Shown in pieces: positions 3,083 to 37,309 of a stretch of DNA of 37,337 bases (position 1 is its first letter; every line of letters starts with the position of its first letter). The notes under the pieces are model-generated. The model saw only the letters and a list, made by a program, of their open reading frames with translations, did no database searches and was not told the DNA's origin. Both the position numbers and the translations under genes were made by a program. Where the stretch lies: assembly GCA_023144005.1 (NCBI GenBank), contig JAGLGN010000018.1:1-37337 (forward strand). Direction: 5' to 3'. Source of the DNA: a bacterium. Lineage in GTDB: Bacteria; AUK180.

Positions 3083-3905
3083 TACCGCCTCCCGCCAGGG
3101 TCGGCTGTCCCACTTTGCCATGCAAAATGCCGGCGACAAGCTCACACTTGAGGACCAGAAGGAAGTACATATCCGCTGTACGCTGATCCCAGAGCATTTC
3201 GAAATTCGCCTGTCCCTTGATAAGTAGAATGTCATGCTTTGACGACACCTCAAGAAGTGATTCCGTTTGCGCGAGCAGCGGCTCATATGTAACCGGCGCG
3301 GTGCGCAGATATTCATCGAGGTCATCCATCGTACAATCATTCAGCATGGGTTTAGATCTCACGTAATGCGTGATCTTCATATCGGGAAATGTCTTGACCA
3401 GCTCACGCTCCATCAAAGAATCAAAGATCACCTCACCGCAATTATCTCCGATGATGCCGATATTTGTCTTGCTGTGGAGTTCTTTCTTTAACTGCTCGAA
3501 AGCGGTCCACTCATATATGCTTCCCATATCTTTTAAGGTATCGGCAGACCTCTCGACTCCCTGAGCAATATCGAGTATATTGCCTGAAATTGATATTCGG
3601 ACGGCATCATAGAGCGGATCACTTGAAGAAGATAGCAGATCCTCGAAGAAGGGTAGAATAGATTCCGCCTGGATATTCATACGCCCCTTTTCCTCTTTGA
3701 AGACATCTTCGCTTCCCGTGTACTTTTCGATCAAGACACCGTAAAGAGTGTGAAAGTCCTTCGCCTGATCGTAATTATCTATTGTTGAGAGTAATTCCTT
3801 TGAGTCCCTTTGAAAATCAGGGTTCTTGGAAAGCCCTAATAATGCGGGAGTTTTTTCAGCAAATCTCAGAATACAGGCGCGACAGTATTTATTCAATACC
3901 GCCAC
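3072..3905 (-). CDS. DUF89 / ARMT1-like metal-dependent phosphatase
   Basis: The 277-residue protein belongs to the DUF89 (COG1578) damage-control phosphatase family, metal-dependent enzymes thought to hydrolyse aberrant sugar phosphates and related metabolites. Visible landmarks are an N-terminal Cys pair (YCRACILRFAEK), the metal/substrate motif IIGDNCGEVIFDSL and the later IKGQANFE. The gene overlaps the 3' end of pepT. GTG at 3905 gives the longest form, but TTG at 3896 has a better ribosome site (AGGTGG) and may be the true start. The position between a peptidase and a radical SAM gene gives no direct substrate clue. Confidence 0.85.
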   Translation of the reverse strand: MAVLNKYCRACILRFAEKTPALLGLSKNPDFQRDSKELLSTIDNYDQAKDFHTLYGVLIEKYTGSEDVFKEEKGRMNIQAESILPFFEDLLSSSSDPLYDAVRISISGNILDIAQGVERSADTLKDMGSIYEWTAFEQLKKELHSKTNIGIIGDNCGEVIFDSLMERELVKTFPDMKITHYVRSKPMLNDCTMDDLDEYLRTAPVTYEPLLAQTESLLEVSSKHDILLIKGQANFEMLWDQRTADMYFLLVLKCELVAGILHGKVGQPTLAGGGSGV

Positions 3906-5904: not shown

Positions 5905-6279
5905 ACGTTCACGAGTGAACAGTGAACAATTAAGAAATGAACAATGAACAATGAAGAAGGACGCTTCGCAGAGCACAAGACGCTACGCAGAGGTTAGAGG
6001 CTGGAGGTTAGAGGTTATGCTTCGCAGAGCACAAGTGACAAGTGCACAAGGCCCCAGCAATGCTGAGCTCGCTCAGCAAGTGTGAAGTCTGAAGTGTGAA
6101 GTGTAAAGTGGGAAAATAGATAGCCAGGTTGTAGGATGATAAGGTGATAGGTTGATAGGTAAAACAGGAGTGACAGAGGGGAAAGATGGATTCCTGCTTT
6201 CGCTGGAATGACAAAAGAGAAAGTGATAGTATTAGAAGATGTGTGGAGAGTGTTTGCATATGATTCTACGCCCATTCTC
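5905..6279. repeat. Mosaic repeat spacer C, part 1
   Basis: A noncoding tract of heptad-like arrays on the plus strand: GAACAAT, GAGGTTA and GTGTGAA units. Modules shared with other spacers are 5923-5952 (= 25382-25411), 6019-6037 (near-identical to 25202-25220, also partly at 5963-5979), and 6132-6153 (= 926-947). It also contains the perfect palindrome TGCTGAGC-tc-GCTCAGCA at 6061-6078. Open frames here are repeat artefacts. Confidence 0.8.
6185..6212. repeat. dRS3-like palindromic element, copy 2
   Basis: GGATTCC and GGAATGAC arms surround TGCTTTCGCT. It is the same element as 962-989, with a mutated right arm. Its minus-strand frame reads as the familiar spurious peptide VIPAKAGIH. It lies inside spacer C. 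Confidence 0.55.
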
Positions 6280-6464
6280 CCTCCACCCACCCAAGTGATC
6301 TGCTTTATTAATCAGATCACCATTCTCCAGGGACGGAGGTGGTGAATTTTTCAACCCACTTATTTATCTGAATTGAATGTATTTAGTTAAAATATTCAAC
6401 CTGCCGTCCCGTAGGCTGATAGCTCCGGCATTCTATTATTTTAACGGATTATTTAATGTGTCAA
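6280..6464 (-). other. Hairpin-rich island, possible ncRNA or 3' end structure
   Basis: This stretch does not resemble the heptad repeats around it. Nested pairings are visible. GTGATCTG/CAGATCAC (6295-6302/6313-6320, 8 bp) lies inside CCTCCACC/GGAGGTGG (6280-6287/6335-6342). TGCCG/CGGCA (6402-6406/6426-6430) lies inside GTTAAAATA/TATTTTAAC (6386-6394/6437-6445). On the minus strand a consensus TTGACA at 6464-6459 is followed 18 nt later by AATAAT. It could be a small RNA, the end of the 18.5-kb operon's transcript, or a decayed mobile element. No T-run terminator is clear. Confidence 0.4.
6435..6464 (-). promoter_or_regulatory. Possible promoter into the hairpin island
   Basis: A perfect -35 hexamer TTGACA (6464-6459) and a weak -10 AATAAT (6440-6435) are 18 nt apart. 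Transcription would begin near 6428 and run through the hairpins toward the NifX-like gene. The weak -10 and its overlap with an inverted repeat keep confidence low. Confidence 0.3.
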
Positions 6465-6479
6465 ACGATATAGCTATTC

Positions 6480-6545
6480 TTCGTATACGGGTGTGTTTCT
6501 TTTTCCTTCCCTGTCTGCACTAACCTCGAACCTCTAGCCTCTATC
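6480..6545. repeat. Mosaic repeat spacer C, part 2
   Basis: Positions 6489-6536 repeat 991-1037 with about two differences and end in a run of CCTCTAG/CCTCGAA-like heptads. The module runs into the last codons of the rRNA methyltransferase gene (stop at 6541). Confidence 0.75.
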
Positions 6546-7821
6546 CATCAGAGAACTTAGGAACAAAGATACCGACGGCTTCAGAGTGGTAGGTATAGGG
6601 GAACATATTGAAAATATTGATCGATTCCAGTTTATAATTTTTAAATTGTTTGACTGATCTTAAGAGAGCGGAGGGATTGCATGAAATGAAATAGATCACT
6701 TCCGGCTTCAAGGACGCGATCGCGCCGAAGATTTCTTTGCCGGGGCTCTTTCTCGGCGGGTCCAGTATCAGTACCGTCGGGGAGATCTTGCGTTTTTTCA
6801 AAGTGAGAAGGCCCTCTTCGACCGGTAGATCCAAGTATGACACATTGATATCATCCGCGAAAACACCTCTGGCATCATTAGTGCCGGAATAGGAATTCTC
6901 CACGAGGTATATTCTTCTTGCATGCTCCCGCAGGAAGGCCGCGAAAAAACCGAATCCCGAATAGAGATCGACCAGATCCCCGGATAATCCCTTCTGACGG
7001 ATATTTTCTGAGATGAATTCCGCGATCTCAACGGCGATCTTGGGATTTGCCTGCACGAAAGAAGACGGATAAAAACGAAATTGCTGTCCTCCCGTATGGA
7101 GTTCGAGTTTCTTTTCATGCATGGAAATCGTCCGGCGCTGTCTATCGGTTATAACCCAACCCGCCAGGCCCAGCTGCCTTGATATCTTGTTTATTCTTTT
7201 CGCGCCGCCGGAAAGTATTGAATCAAAGAAATATTCAATGCCTTCACCGTGTTCGGTGCTCGTTACCTTGATCTCTTTCAATTTATCCGACAATGGCCCT
7301 GAGCGGTTAACTATTGAATTCCATCTTCGGATGATACGGTTTATTCCAGGCACGCATACGGGACACTCCGAGATACCCTGAATGGCATTTGATCTTAACA
7401 TCGAAAAGCCCAGATATCCATCTTTGGTAAAATGAAAGCGCGATGTGATACGATAGCCCAACTCCCCTGACATGGAGTGGAAATTTATTTTGTCCTTGTC
7501 AATATTCAATCTTTCGCATTCATTGTATATCGCCTGCTTTTTTACCTTCTCCTGAGATGTTGGTGACAGGTCGCCAAAGGTACATCCGCCGCATTTTCCG
7601 AAGTGCGGGCAATGGGGGCGGGTATCTCTCAGCGGAGAGGGTGTGATGAGCTTATCTATTGTTGCATAGAGTAAATCCTCTTTTTCTTTGCTCACGGTGT
7701 AGCTGACCACATCGCCCGGCACCGCCAATTCCACGAGGACTTTCTTTCCCGCGGTTTCGTCCATACCGACCCCGTAGATCCCGTAGGATATATCAGTTAT
7801 TTCTACTTGTGATTTCGTCAA
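6541..7821 (-). CDS. 23S rRNA (uracil-C5)-methyltransferase, RlmD/RumA type
   Basis: This 426-residue SAM-dependent RNA m5U methyltransferase of the TrmA/RlmD family has an N-terminal TRAM-like RNA-binding domain (residues about 1-60). The 4Fe-4S site is C71-x5-C77-x2-C80 with C153 or C156 as fourth ligand. The SAM site is DLYSGFGFFAAF (near 285), then LDPPRKSPG, the catalytic nucleophile in SCNPSAL (C381) and HSEAVG (E415). The iron-sulfur cysteines point to RlmD/RlmCD rather than TrmA; whether U747 or U1939 is the target cannot be told. The start is TTG 7821 with GAGAGG about 8 nt upstream, overlapping the preceding gene by 29 nt. It is the last gene of the long operon. Confidence 0.9.
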   Translation of the reverse strand: MTKSQVEITDISYGIYGVGMDETAGKKVLVELAVPGDVVSYTVSKEKEDLLYATIDKLITPSPLRDTRPHCPHFGKCGGCTFGDLSPTSQEKVKKQAIYNECERLNIDKDKINFHSMSGELGYRITSRFHFTKDGYLGFSMLRSNAIQGISECPVCVPGINRIIRRWNSIVNRSGPLSDKLKEIKVTSTEHGEGIEYFFDSILSGGAKRINKISRQLGLAGWVITDRQRRTISMHEKKLELHTGGQQFRFYPSSFVQANPKIAVEIAEFISENIRQKGLSGDLVDLYSGFGFFAAFLREHARRIYLVENSYSGTNDARGVFADDINVSYLDLPVEEGLLTLKKRKISPTVLILDPPRKSPGKEIFGAIASLKPEVIYFISCNPSALLRSVKQFKNYKLESINIFNMFPYTYHSEAVGIFVPKFSDG

Positions 7822-14437: not shown

Positions 14438-14543
14438 AATGTACTGTTCCATAAATACCGATGTGGGTAGGCGGCGTTCACTGCGCCTCTCATGCTAACA
14501 AAATAGCATCAGCCATTGTTCTGGTATTTTTTGAACAGTACAT
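14438..14543. mobile_element. MITE-like element at the gatB stop codon (about 105 bp)
   Basis: The terminal inverted repeats are 14439-14459 and 14523-14543: 21 bp, 18 matching, outer part ATGTACTGTTC/GAACAGTACAT perfect. Direct 9-bp duplications AATTACTTA flank it at 14429-14437 and 14544-14552. The interior has two hairpins, AGGCG/CGCCT (14469-14473/14484-14488) and ATGCTA/TAGCAT (14492-14497/14504-14509). It has no coding capacity, so it would need a transposase in trans. The right-hand duplication contains the gatB stop codon, and removing one copy plus the element restores a 12-nt intergenic gap. Part of the core recurs at 37160-37182. Confidence 0.75.
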
Positions 14544-25108: not shown

Positions 25109-25118
25109 GGCATTAAGT

Positions 25119-25541
25119 GGGATGTAGAGATAGAGGTTGGAGGTTAGAGGTTAGAGGTTAGTGCAGAGAGGGAATAAATAATTAGAGAAATGAAGAATGA
25201 GGCTTCGCGGAGCACAAGTGCAAAAGCAAGTGTGACGAGTAAAAATATAATTGACAATGGACAATTGACAATGGACAATTATTAGTAAGTGCACCAGTGG
25301 ACCCAGTGTCCCGGGGACAAGTGCAGAAGAAAGTGTGAAGTGTGAAGTGTGAGGTGTGAAGTGTAAAGTGGATAAGTACAATGAACAATTAAGAAATGAA
25401 CAATGAACAATTATAATACAGATAACAAAGAGATTCTTATCTCAAACGGTTTTCCGGTTATGGATGTGATTCCTTATCCCATTCTCAAACCAACCTCTAA
25501 CCTCTAACCTCTGCGGAGCGTCATTATTCATTTCTCCAGTA
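25119..25541. repeat. Mosaic repeat spacer E
   Basis: A noncoding spacer of heptad arrays: GAGGTTA units (25135-25160), TTGACAA/TGGACAA units (25249-25280), GTGTGAA units (25333-25365) and GAACAAT units (25380-25412). Modules shared elsewhere are 25249-25320 (inverted at 32246-32318), 25319-25342 (= 34-57) and 25382-25411 (= 5923-5952). A weak hairpin GAGAT/ATCTC at about 25428-25441 followed by TTTG on the minus strand might end the cyclase transcript. Frames crossing this region read as repetitive peptides and are not genes. Confidence 0.85.
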
Positions 25542-29729: not shown

Positions 29730-29745
29730 TTATCTACCCTACTTA

Positions 29746-30474
29746 TTAGAATCCAAATAGCATGGAAAGGCCGAATCCGCCGAGGATATCCCGCTCATAG
29801 TATTCATCCCCCCAGGGATCCATATGTCTAGTCCTTACGACTCTGAATGTTTTAAAAAGTGAGAACTGAATGGAACCGTATCGCTCATTGAAACTGATCG
29901 CTCCGATTTCTACAGAGAATTGCGCCTCTATATTGTCTCTATTGGGATAATCCCCTGAATAATACGGACCACAATTAATGGATAAAAATACATTGCTTTT
30001 TTTGAATGGATTAAAGAATTTTAATCCTAAGAATGCATCGAATAAATATTCATTTTCCGGGCTGAAAAAAACGCGGCTGCCAAGGTAGAGATATCCTGCC
30101 TTGTGGATCAATAGTATTTTTTCAAAGCCGGCCATAATACATCCGATATCTCGAAAATAACTCTCCAATGCCAACGCAAATTGAACATTAATCAGCTTTC
30201 GATTAAAATCTGATCTGATCATATTCTTCAATACTTTCACCGGTTCTGTTGCGTTTTCCAATAATTCTACAGAAGTGACACTTGCATAGGGAACCATCAT
30301 TTCCTTTCCAGATAAGAGCCCAAGGTCAAAATACTCCTTCCACTCAAACCGCAGGATCTCCCCGTAAAGTGCCCTGCCGTCTGTCAAAGTTAATCTATAT
30401 ATTTCATTCCCGGATGAAGATATTAAAATACCGGATATTAAGAACAGGATAAGAAGTACACTATGTTTTCTCAA
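29746..30474 (-). CDS. Small envelope protein, paralogue 2
   Basis: About 242 residues. TTG 30474 gives a clean signal peptide (LRKHSVLLILFLISGILISS) and a 4-nt overlap (TTGA) with the preceding stop. A longer reading upstream would be hydrophilic and overlap it further. A short beta domain (LTLTDGRALYGEILRFEW, then YASVTSVELL) resembles the start of the neighbouring protein. The remainder alternates aromatic and small residues and ends FGLSMLFGF, as in outer-membrane barrels. It contains the same DPW segment (HMDPWGDEYYERD) as its neighbour. Function unknown; probably outer-membrane or periplasmic. Confidence 0.75.
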   Translation of the reverse strand: MRKHSVLLILFLISGILISSSGNEIYRLTLTDGRALYGEILRFEWKEYFDLGLLSGKEMMVPYASVTSVELLENATEPVKVLKNMIRSDFNRKLINVQFALALESYFRDIGCIMAGFEKILLIHKAGYLYLGSRVFFSPENEYLFDAFLGLKFFNPFKKSNVFLSINCGPYYSGDYPNRDNIEAQFSVEIGAISFNERYGSIQFSLFKTFRVVRTRHMDPWGDEYYERDILGGFGLSMLFGF

Positions 30475-31160
30475 AATCCCAATCCTAAATTGAGGATCAG
30501 TATGACAGTAGTATTTGAATATGACACACTTCCCCACCAGGGGTCCCATTCTCTTGTAATATACTTATAGCTTTCCAGACCGAGTTCGAGAAATAATACA
30601 TTACCGACACTATCTCGGCAGAAAAAGCCAATACCGAGCATGAAATTTGGAAAAATGATATCTTCATTGTATGCACCAAAGCCGAATAGTGCGCCGACCA
30701 TTGACACAATATACATACCAGAGTTTGAAGAGGCTGGAAGCACCCTGATACCTTGAGAAATATTTATGGAACTGATCGAATCAGCATAATCCAGTCTGAA
30801 ATCAAAGAATAGATTCCCCCAGTTGAATTTTCGGAAATTCAGTTCTAAGCCCAGCCGGCAAAGGGTATAATCTTCGAGTTTCGTAGCAAGCCCGATCTTC
30901 ATCACTGTGGTATTAAAATTATTCTTTTCACCAGAATCTCCGAACTCCGCACTCCTTGATGTAAGGTCTTTGATCTGATCATATTTGAGTTCGAGAATTT
31001 CACCGTCATCTTTCTCAATAATCACTTTCTCACCGGGGACCAACTCAATAAGATTTCCCGCGATCGCCTGCCCTTCTATATCGACTATTATGACATCTTT
31101 ACAACAAATCGAAATACTGAAGAGGACTAAGATGAGCGATATCAGTAATTTATTCATCAC
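30471..31160 (-). CDS. Small envelope protein, paralogue 1
   Basis: This 229-residue protein has a signal peptide (LLISLILVLFSISICC), a short beta domain (GQAIAGNLIELVPGEKVIIE, EILELKYDQIKDL) and a C-terminal barrel-like region with EWDPWWGSVSYSNTT and a final LNLGLGF. The cysteine pair at the end of the signal peptide (SICC) could be a lipoprotein site, but the lipobox is weak. It is a tandem paralogue of the next gene and first in the unit containing the sAC-like cyclase. The start is GTG 31160 or ATG 31157. The promoter -10 lies only about 5-8 nt upstream, so the mRNA may be leaderless; no Shine-Dalgarno is present. Confidence 0.72.
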   Translation of the reverse strand: MMNKLLISLILVLFSISICCKDVIIVDIEGQAIAGNLIELVPGEKVIIEKDDGEILELKYDQIKDLTSRSAEFGDSGEKNNFNTTVMKIGLATKLEDYTLCRLGLELNFRKFNWGNLFFDFRLDYADSISSINISQGIRVLPASSNSGMYIVSMVGALFGFGAYNEDIIFPNFMLGIGFFCRDSVGNVLFLELGLESYKYITREWDPWWGSVSYSNTTVILILNLGLGF

Positions 31161-32023: not shown

Positions 32024-32090
32024 AGGAGACCGTTCGCAAGTTCGCAGGTTCCAAGTTCGCAGGTTCATAATCACAACAATATTCAGATCC

Positions 32091-32119
32091 GTCATTCCCG
32101 ACTTTATCTGGAATCCATC
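32091..32119. repeat. dRS3-like palindromic element, copy 3
   Basis: GTCATTCCCG and GGAATCCATC arms around ACTTTATCT. It is the same outer arms as 962-989 and 6185-6212 in inverse orientation, with a different loop. Confidence 0.5.
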
Positions 32120-32186
32120 TTCTCCCTCTTTCATCCCTCATTATTCATTTCTCCTTTTCTCTCATCTTCCCTCATGCTATCCAGAA

Positions 32187-32204
32187 GACAGGTCAAGCCC
32201 TGTC
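32187..32204. repeat. Short palindrome GACAGG-N6-CCTGTC
   Basis: A perfect 6-bp inverted repeat with a 6-nt loop inside spacer D. It is a common kind of dispersed palindrome; no gene-associated function is evident. Confidence 0.5.
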
Positions 32205-32415
32205 CCTACGATTTCTCTCTGGTATCCATCTATCCATTCCTAACTTTGTCCCTGGGACACTGGGGTCCACTGGGCCACTTACTAATAATTGTCCATTGTC
32301 AATTGTCCATTGTCAATTTCTCTTATTCCCCTCTGCACTAACCTCTAACCACTAGCCTCCAACCTCTTTTATAATTGTCCATTGTCAATTTTTCTATAAG
32401 CCTCTAACCTCCTTC

Positions 32416-34896: not shown

Positions 34897-36888
34897 CTAT
34901 ATTACTATCTTGAAAATCAATGAATTCCCTTCTTGCAGATCCCTTCGGGCAGCAAGATATAGAAAGGCTCTGGGAAGAATTTCCCAAGAATACAAGATCT
35001 CGTAAATTTCCCTATTATACAATGTATTCATCTGCAGTTTTGCCCGAACGAACATCTTAGAGGTAAGATACCAAAGGCCGTAGAAAAGATGGTTTTCGCT
35101 CCCGCCCGAATATGACAAAGGAAGCGTCGTATCGTAACTTATTCCGTAAGCGAATTTCAAGGTACCCGTAGGCGAAAAGGCAAGGTCAAAGGTAAGGGTC
35201 TTATAGGAAATAGAAGATAAATTATAATAATCGGCACGCTTTCCCATTGAAAATACTGCGGAGAATCTCAACGGCAGCGATGAAGGAGAAGCAAATGCCG
35301 CACTCAAGTTATTTACACTCATGGAAGCACCGTATCTCTCTCTGCCAAGCGAACCGTTCACAGAAAGGGTGCTGAAATCATAAAAGACTAATGTTAGATA
35401 CGCGCTGCTGAATATGTAATGGTCCTCACTATCGTGATAATCCCCTAAGCTGCTGTTCAATCCCGCATAGAGAGTATGAAAGAACGAAGATTTATATCTC
35501 ATTATATTCAGAGACGAGGAGATCAGTGTCTGGCCGGCTTCAAAGAAATAGCCCTCAGGCGAATCAAGGTTATCGTCATTGTAGATCACATGCGCATTGA
35601 AACTGAAATACTTCGAGTTATAATAGTAATTCTGAAATGCACCGTAACCGGGAGTGCCCGTACTTGAAAATGTGAGCGAAGAAGTTGCGCCGGAATATCT
35701 GGAGAATCTTAAATTCATTCCAACAAAACCCGTCATGCCCGATGCGGCATCAGTATTGAATGCGTTGATGAACAGTCCAATATCTGACATCTTCAAGAAC
35801 GATTTTTTAAGAGAGCCGATCAGATAATCTCCATGATTTCCCTCATTGTCCTTAAGGTACATCAAGAAAGCATGATCATCATTCTTTCTGTAAAGGGCCT
35901 TTCCCCCGACCAGCGGCTTCACTACCCTTCTTGTATAAAAAACATGTGTCGGTGGAAGATACTGGGTCACTGAGGTGAAGAAATTACGCTTCTCCGGTAA
36001 ATATAATTCAAAGCGGGAAAAGTTGAATTGAAGTGTATCCGCTTCTATCTGCGCATAATCGGGGTTTATCGTCAGGCCGACATCCAATGCCTTTCCCTTT
36101 GAAATATCCAGTGACAGTCCCGCGTCATAGGAACTTTCCCCTGCGAGGTCGCTCTTTGCTAGCACGAACGGATCCAGATTGATATCAAATAAGGGTGAAA
36201 GCTTCTCCGGAAAAAGGAGCGTACCGCTCTTATCCATATTAGTCGAGGATTCAAAGGAATACAGAGGATACCAGGTAGTATTTTCCTGACTGTTGAAGTG
36301 AAATCTCAAGAAATTGATCCTGAAGGTATCCGTCTTCCCCTGTAAAGGAAGATTCTTGAAAGGAATATATATTTCTGCAGTCCAGCCCTCATCTATCTCC
36401 GAAACCTCGGAGTACCATACTCCGTTCCAGTTCTTATTGAAGATCCCTCCATTTTCAAAGTATGCGTCGATATGGGAATTCCCCCGCAGTACAGCGAAGT
36501 AATATCCAGTGGCGCCGTCATTGCATGGATCGATCAGAATAGAGATCTGATCAGAAGAATTTACCTGTTCGATCTCACCGAGTGACGGCGGTTTGCCGTC
36601 CTGACCGTCATGACTAACAAAAAGCAGATACAGGCCCTCTTTTGAATACAATACTTTGACCTCAGTGGGATTTGTCTCCGGCTCACCGGTATCCGGCGTC
36701 CGTTGTACAAAATCCGTGATAGTATCCGCTTCGCTCCATACGGCATCGATCTTTCCATCGATCACGGGTAAAGACGCGGGTTTATGTACGGAAATAGAAA
36801 AATCCGCGGCAAATGATGCGCTTGAAAATATCAGAAAAAGAGTGAGGAAAAAGTACGATCTAATGTTCTTCAGGTTTGACCGGAACAA
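34897..36888 (-). CDS. CBM9-like / DUF5916 outer-membrane protein
   Basis: This protein of up to 663 residues has a signal peptide (YFFLTLFLIFSSASFA). An N-terminal carbohydrate-binding-9-like domain spans about 30-210 (PVIDGKIDAVWSEAD, YSKEGLYLLFVSHDG, DQISILIDPCNDG, GWTAEIYIPFKNLP). DUF5916 follows, with PDYAQIEADTLQFNFSRFEL and PEKRNFF, then an outer-membrane barrel of repeated aromatic strands to the C-terminus (SLIFKIVI). Related proteins are surface-exposed sugar-associated proteins of diderms; the ligand is unknown. The annotated start is TTG 36888, inside the PspC gene (29-nt overlap). It has a weak ribosome site, so a nearby alternative start is possible. Confidence 0.85.
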   Translation of the reverse strand: MFRSNLKNIRSYFFLTLFLIFSSASFAADFSISVHKPASLPVIDGKIDAVWSEADTITDFVQRTPDTGEPETNPTEVKVLYSKEGLYLLFVSHDGQDGKPPSLGEIEQVNSSDQISILIDPCNDGATGYYFAVLRGNSHIDAYFENGGIFNKNWNGVWYSEVSEIDEGWTAEIYIPFKNLPLQGKTDTFRINFLRFHFNSQENTTWYPLYSFESSTNMDKSGTLLFPEKLSPLFDINLDPFVLAKSDLAGESSYDAGLSLDISKGKALDVGLTINPDYAQIEADTLQFNFSRFELYLPEKRNFFTSVTQYLPPTHVFYTRRVVKPLVGGKALYRKNDDHAFLMYLKDNEGNHGDYLIGSLKKSFLKMSDIGLFINAFNTDAASGMTGFVGMNLRFSRYSGATSSLTFSSTGTPGYGAFQNYYYNSKYFSFNAHVIYNDDNLDSPEGYFFEAGQTLISSSLNIMRYKSSFFHTLYAGLNSSLGDYHDSEDHYIFSSAYLTLVFYDFSTLSVNGSLGRERYGASMSVNNLSAAFASPSSLPLRFSAVFSMGKRADYYNLSSISYKTLTFDLAFSPTGTLKFAYGISYDTTLPLSYSGGSENHLFYGLWYLTSKMFVRAKLQMNTLYNREIYEILYSWEILPRAFLYLAARRDLQEGNSLIFKIVI

Positions 36889-37106: not shown

Positions 37107-37309
37107 TTGATTGAGTTTTGATCCGTCTTGGCTAAAGCGCTCTTATTCATAAAGACGGAAACAATGGCTGGATGCTATTTTGCTCCTAAAGATAGCCTCA
37201 GCCCGAAGGGAATATTGTATTTGAATTGTCAATATAAAATTGACAATTGAATAAAGATTATTTGATGGAGTTTTGATCCATCTTTTCATTATTAACATAT
37301 GCTTTTCTC
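37107..37309. repeat. Structured repeat region upstream of PspC
   Basis: About 200 nt of noncoding DNA. Two near-identical 23-nt direct repeats (minus strand AAGAYGGATCAAAAC-type; 37107-37129 and 37263-37285, two differences) bracket several hairpins: CCGTCTT/AAGACGG (37123-37129/37152-37158), GGCTG...GCTAT/ATAGC...CAGCC (37166-37202), and AATTGTCAAT/ATTGACAATT (37224-37248, 10 bp). Positions 37160-37182 share 22 nt with the MITE at 14438-14543. Positions 37285-37309 are the inverted copy of 1-25. Confidence 0.55.

Follow-up and report, generated by a model that had tools for sequence, protein, structure and literature searches.

Heptameric tandem repeats are a recurrent feature of the DNA between bacterial genes. 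They are over-represented there in Xanthomonas and Nostoc, and their preference for period 7 has been ascribed to the length of DNA that contacts the polymerase (PMC4692102). In Microcystis and Elizabethkingia one heptamer is mixed with others, and mixed heptamer arrays, contigs that end in them and relatives that lack them have all been reported (PMC4679880). The genome considered here (G000; 2.67 Mb in 38 contigs) belongs to a lineage that appears to be small and remote, and the window, the whole stretch of 37,337 nucleotides that was analysed, is its entire contig C10. Several spacers of the window are mosaics of 7-base arrays, a combination that the first-pass annotation had regarded as unusual; mixed arrays have, however, been described in cyanobacteria and Bacteroidetes, so that the co-occurrence of several heptads in a spacer has precedents and this judgement does not stand.

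The closest described systems each share part of the architecture. The STRR or heptameric repeats of cyanobacteria and Xanthomonas (PMC4692102) likewise consist of 7-base units with more than one word per genome, are dispersed and mostly intergenic, and vary in array content among close relatives, but the arrays described here are short and degenerate, fuse many words with palindromes in a single spacer, have main words that are not G-quadruplex-like and are in part cargo of miniature inverted-repeat elements (MITEs). The TAACTGA repeats of Beggiatoaceae, Cyanobacteria and Bacteroidetes (PMC4679880) are also intergenic, occur alongside other heptamers in certain genomes, terminate contigs, and are present or absent in the same spacer of relatives; in Maribeggiatoa, one dominant word lies just upstream of start codons, whereas here many words occur in no fixed place. 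The multicopy elements of four or five heptanucleotides in Geobacter metallireducens (PMC2700814) are comparable in being dispersed tandem heptads, but each of them has a consensus alignment, whereas the present modules are freely recombined. The BrickBuilt MITE of Porphyromonas gingivalis (PMC4596501) is, similarly, an intergenic non-autonomous inverted-repeat element that carries tandem repeats; it is built from one 23-base unit with a leader and a tail, whereas here several heptad arrays and palindromes replace the middle. With tandem 7-base units above chance, dispersed at many loci and mainly in non-coding DNA, the arrays belong with the STRR-type repeats, and the mosaics are a striking case of a known but little-studied kind of bacterial repeat.

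Mosaic spacers and the period-7 signal

The main finding is the spacer at 5905–6545, in which a TGAACAA/GAACAAT array (5916–5958, with 12–25 similar places in about 1 Mb sampled), a GAGGTTA array (5989–6017), a module of CACAAGT-type units (6019–6052; up to 45 similar places sampled), a GTGTGAA array (6078–6114; up to 40 similar places sampled) and a near-heptad or octad array of GGTGATA/AGGTTGAT (6126–6160), all on the plus strand, are followed by the REP-like palindrome GGATTCCTGCTTTCGCTGGAATGAC (6188–6212) and a degenerate copy of family B, a repeat of about 280 bp (6220–6506). The first mosaic spacer (862–1049) contains a GGTGATA-type array (921–954), a REP-like palindrome (965–990) and an AACCTC array (1020–1050). 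The third (25119–25541) has five heptad arrays: on the plus strand GAGGTTA (25131–25161), TTGACAA/TGGACAA with ATAATTG...CAATTAT ends (25247–25282), GTGTGAA (25331–25372) and GAACAAT (25378–25413), and on the minus strand an inverted GAGGTTA array (25492–25512). The fourth (32024–32415) holds a GTTCGCA array (32032–32066), the palindrome GACAGGTCAAGCCCTGTCC near 32187–32205, inverted TKGACAA arrays (32285–32320 and 32371–32390) and an AACCTCT array (32336–32364). A further multi-copy repeat occupies the end of the contig (37188–37337), with similar sequence at several contig ends of the sister species.

The first-pass annotation had described these four spacers as assembled from one set of modules in differing order and orientation. 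Self-BLAST of the window recovered all five of the pairs it had named and bore out the differing arrangement: 926–954 matches 6132–6160 (93%), 990–1043 matches 6488–6541 (94%, E = 8e-18), 5919–5952 matches 25378–25411 (97%), 25249–25320 matches the inverted 32246–32318 (94.5% over 73 bp, E = 3e-24) and 34–58 matches 25319–25343 (100%). Two additional pairs were found, 25132–25177 with the inverted 32323–32367 and 1–25 with 37285–37309. The heptads GAGGTTA, GTGTGAA, GAACAAT and TTGACAA/TGGACAA are present as named, but the blocks are only partly 7-base arrays, as the mosaics also hold octad-like arrays, REP-like palindromes, family B and MITE remnants. No Rfam family matched the window.

Period-7 coverage of the four spacers amounts to 24, 145, 174 and 58 bp, values that were reached in none of 300 dinucleotide-preserving shuffles of each, and is zero in the ordinary spacer 3341–3888. 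The excess that had been anticipated genome-wide does extend past the window in the sampled stretches, in non-coding DNA only. In an initial sample of 426 kb, the autocorrelation of non-coding DNA peaks at lag 7 (0.302 versus about 0.27), whereas coding DNA has no such peak; 21 exact period-7 arrays are non-coding and five are coding, with non-coding DNA forming 12% of the sample, and exact non-coding arrays at periods 4–6 and 8–12 number 0–2 each. By a looser measure, 4.2% of the spacer DNA of this genome and 4.9% of that of its sister species lies under period 7, against 0–1.4% for other periods (no more than 1% in G000). These statistics are based on about one quarter of G000 as stretches together with whole-genome pattern searches, and on a smaller share of the sister genome; gene calling accepted open frames from 100 codons upwards, and short genes may therefore lie in some spacers. 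The suggested preference for certain gene orientations took the form of a mild lean to convergent pairs, between which arrays are about twice as frequent (26/104 versus 34/234, p = 0.03).

The comparison comprised the sister species G001 of the same genus, G002–G004 of the same family, two other genomes of the same class and further genomes that share only the domain. With at most one mismatch, TTGACAATGGACAATTGACAA has 21 sites in G000, 51 in G001, 51 in G002, 7 in G003 and 0 in G004, and none in 36 other genomes, and its reversed control has none. Arrays of GTGTGAA are present in G000, G001 and G004 and, outside the family, in three of about 380 genomes; the reversed-word control is void for this word, the mirror image of which is a rotation of itself. 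TKGACAA occurs in G000–G003 and in two of about 380 genomes outside the family. The heptad words are lineage-specific though not exclusive, as an exact TTGACAA/TGGACAA 28-mer spans at least about six phyla, and heptad arrays as such recur widely across bacteria. The remaining principal words of G000 are not among the common heptads near the 28-mer in other phyla, where neighbouring words mostly differ; because of this, and because reversed controls were equally frequent in the roughly 380 genomes, a vocabulary shared across phyla is not claimed.

Several side observations were made on these sequences. In Prevotella and relatives (L206, L229 and L252), an array of TTGACAATGGACAATTGACAATGGACAA appears to lie in a reading frame near a protein C-terminus (IDNGQLTMDN by eye), suggesting that heptad arrays may sometimes be translated. 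In TTGACAATGGACAATTATAAGATAAAAT (L062, L066, L068 and L071 of the sister species), the array provides a –35-like hexamer, followed after 16 bases by a –10-like hexamer, a possible mobile promoter. The palindromes GGATTCC...GGAATGAC, GGATCC...AGGATGAC and GGACAGG...CCTGTCC recur in the window (6188–6212 and 965–990) and in G001 and G004 (L062–L081 and L135), and in a Delongbacteria locus (L221) similar REP-like palindromes adjoin a TTGACAA array. Genes for Y1-type transposases, mostly of about 285 codons, are present in all five family genomes, with 3–13 in each and five Y1_Tnp genes in G000 (for example at C25:41650–45865). The spacers near two of the G000 genes have a 331-bp repeat in common, and REP-like palindromes are absent from these two inspected flanks.

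Spacer turnover between sister species

The genes of the two sister species are collinear and mostly 91–98% identical, and the window is collinear with contigs C95 and C46 of G001. Among the orthologous spacers of 53 gene pairs, full conservation was found for 1 of the 23 that bear heptads in either species and for 23 of the 30 that are heptad-free (p = 6e-8), with median conservation of 0.18 and 1.0, respectively: heptad-bearing spacers are replaced wholesale while the surrounding genes barely change. Heptad spacers are longer on average; length alone is nevertheless insufficient to account for the turnover, because heptad-free spacers of 548, 817 and 1249 bp are fully conserved.

Individual loci illustrate the extent of replacement. 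The spacer 861–1056 is a 196-bp mosaic here versus an unrelated 187-bp mosaic in the sister species, between neighbouring genes that are 96–97% identical; the divergence begins at the gene ends and no target duplication is present. The mosaic at 25115–25541 is absent from C46 (L102), where about 1.3–1.36 kb of other DNA, apparently with small genes, takes its place, and the fourth mosaic spacer is 392 bp long in the window versus 161 bp in G001. At position 36861 the sister species has a 308-bp mosaic versus eight non-aligning base pairs in the window, and at position 29730 a 221-bp mosaic replaces a stretch with two open frames of the window (29746–31160), both of which are absent from G001. 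Such replacement of spacers without terminal repeats is common. With regard to copy number, for which a comparison of strains had been suggested, the two species differ in the content of whole spacers, beyond copy number alone. In the sole pair of arrays that can be aligned directly between the two species the unit number is equal, the other spacers being too divergent to align, and with flanking genes that differ by about 2–14% single slippage steps are too distant to see. An apparent rearrangement breakpoint at the heptad spacer 5905–6547 was rejected as uninformative because two contigs of the sister species end there.

MITE family and heptad cargo

Part of the movement of the mosaics is ordinary transposition, as some MITE copies carry heptad arrays. 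Both species carry many copies of the parent family, a 273-bp MITE whose terminal-repeat pattern has 248 sites in G000 versus one for the reversed pattern (whole-genome search); heptad arrays are absent from the canonical 273-bp copies. The composite elements are short, multicopy and provided with terminal inverted repeats, as MITEs are. A 300-bp element of this kind (C11:24906–25205), bounded by AGTGTGCTGTCTCATAAATAC and its inverted partner, encloses two palindromes together with arrays of GTGTGAA and AACCTTT; the empty site ATATTAGTTC in the sister species has one TA, whereas the filled site has two, as left by a TA duplication, and a second copy lies inverted at C7:16569–16868. The reverse situation also occurs, with a heptad-filled element of 226 bp and like termini in G001 and no insert in G000. 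Within the window, 14438–14543 is a short, decayed MITE copy whose terminal inverted repeats measure 21 bp, and the orthologous spacer of G001 lacks its body; a 28-bp residue, in which two terminal-repeat tips stand face to face, lies at 6293–6320 within the family-B copy; its counterpart is a full 272-bp MITE in a family-B copy of the sister species, and another family-B copy of G000 has none. An IS630/Tc1-type DDE_3 transposase (PF13358) was dropped as the candidate mover, as no such gene was found in G000 or G001.

Terminal repeats are enriched in heptad spacers (19 of 104, versus 17 of 234 heptad-free spacers; p = 0.004), and about 82% of heptad spacers have none that is recognizable. With up to four mismatches allowed, no terminal inverted repeats bound the mosaics of the first, third and fourth spacers, and that of 5905–6545 holds the internal remnant only. 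As most heptad spacers lack MITE termini, recombination, deletion and slippage must explain the remainder. One orthologous element points in this direction: C12:1211–1386 corresponds to C66:7356–7655 in the sister species, which is 124 bp longer, and the extra block is flanked by two TTGTCAA-type arrays, each with TTTCTC at its end, a difference that fits recombination or deletion between arrays. From this pair, together with the wholesale replacement of spacers without termini, we infer that such exchange is probably the general route.

Origin of the mosaics

The mosaics are probably selfish or neutral intergenic debris, in which slippage extends the heptamers, MITEs transport some of them and recombination rearranges them. 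Judging from the tandem structure and the literature, slipped-strand mispairing would create and lengthen the heptamer repeats; some arrays would then ride inside miniature inverted-repeat elements with termini close to AGTGTWCTGWTTCATAAATA and a TA target duplication, as documented for individual elements, and recombination, deletion and template switching would find short homologies in the repeated words and may thereby exchange blocks between spacers. Weak selection on spacers would let such non-coding repeat mosaics build up in them, and the data are explicable without any host role. It is quite unlikely that one ordinary insertion sequence or MITE family is the source of all of the modules, a possibility that the first-pass annotation, with an ordinary insertion sequence in mind, had named as fatal to its reading: the many-copy 273-bp family is interleaved with the mosaics, encloses some of them and has left remnants in the window, but its canonical copies are free of heptads, the heptad words, the REP-like palindromes and family B each have a sequence of their own and the terminal repeat is absent from most heptad spacers, so that a single element accounts for some mosaics, fails as an explanation of the whole and is already largely refuted. 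An assembly artefact of repeats in metagenome bins can practically be dismissed; contigs of G001 and G002 do frequently terminate inside such repeats, but the same words are found in separately assembled relatives, internal to contigs and with clean empty sites.

Reading of the heptads in register by a protein or RNA regulator, with the arrays as binding platforms by analogy to the TAACTGA repeats of Beggiatoaceae, for which a regulatory proposal exists (PMC4679880), is unlikely. Tandem identical units would suit cooperative binding, and some TTGACAA arrays of the sister species lead, by eye, into –10-like TAAAAT or TAGAAT at promoter spacing, so that promoter activity of single copies is possible, but array positions are mostly unconserved at orthologous genes, both orientations are found with a lean towards convergent spacers, and many different words stand side by side. 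A dedicated activity that writes heptad arrays into spacers, such as a polymerase that works at breaks and either uses a template or is prone to slippage, is very unlikely, although it would account for the recurrence of period 7 in unrelated phyla. In its favour are the dominance of period 7 in this family, the rewriting of whole spacers without termini and the exact 28-mer in Bacteroidota, Clostridia, Treponema, Anabaena, Geomesophilobacter and Delongbacteria (among the matches listed). Against it, a candidate enzyme is lacking, reversed words are no rarer outside the family than forward ones (two genomes each of about 380) and a word test on viral contigs was inconsistent (27 versus 3, 18 versus 10 and 2 versus 12). 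It is likewise very unlikely that a mechanism for writing or expanding 7-base spacer arrays, and for recombining them, is common to unrelated phyla, with the enzyme rather than the word setting the period; if it were, this mechanism would replace entire intergenic regions while genes diverge by 4–8%.

With slippage, transposition and recombination as the preferred account, what is new here is the evidence from a species pair that MITEs transport heptad arrays, and the scale on which spacers are replaced. The two genomes provide a clear comparative case of heptameric repeat movement, with inverted-repeat elements carrying the arrays, empty sites and wholesale turnover between conserved genes, and with such a pair of species a long-standing question, the preference of bacterial tandem repeats for period 7, becomes open to testing. 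The mosaics also suggest a reason why assemblies break at spacers, and they serve as a warning that the spacers of such genomes are not readable as conserved regulatory DNA.
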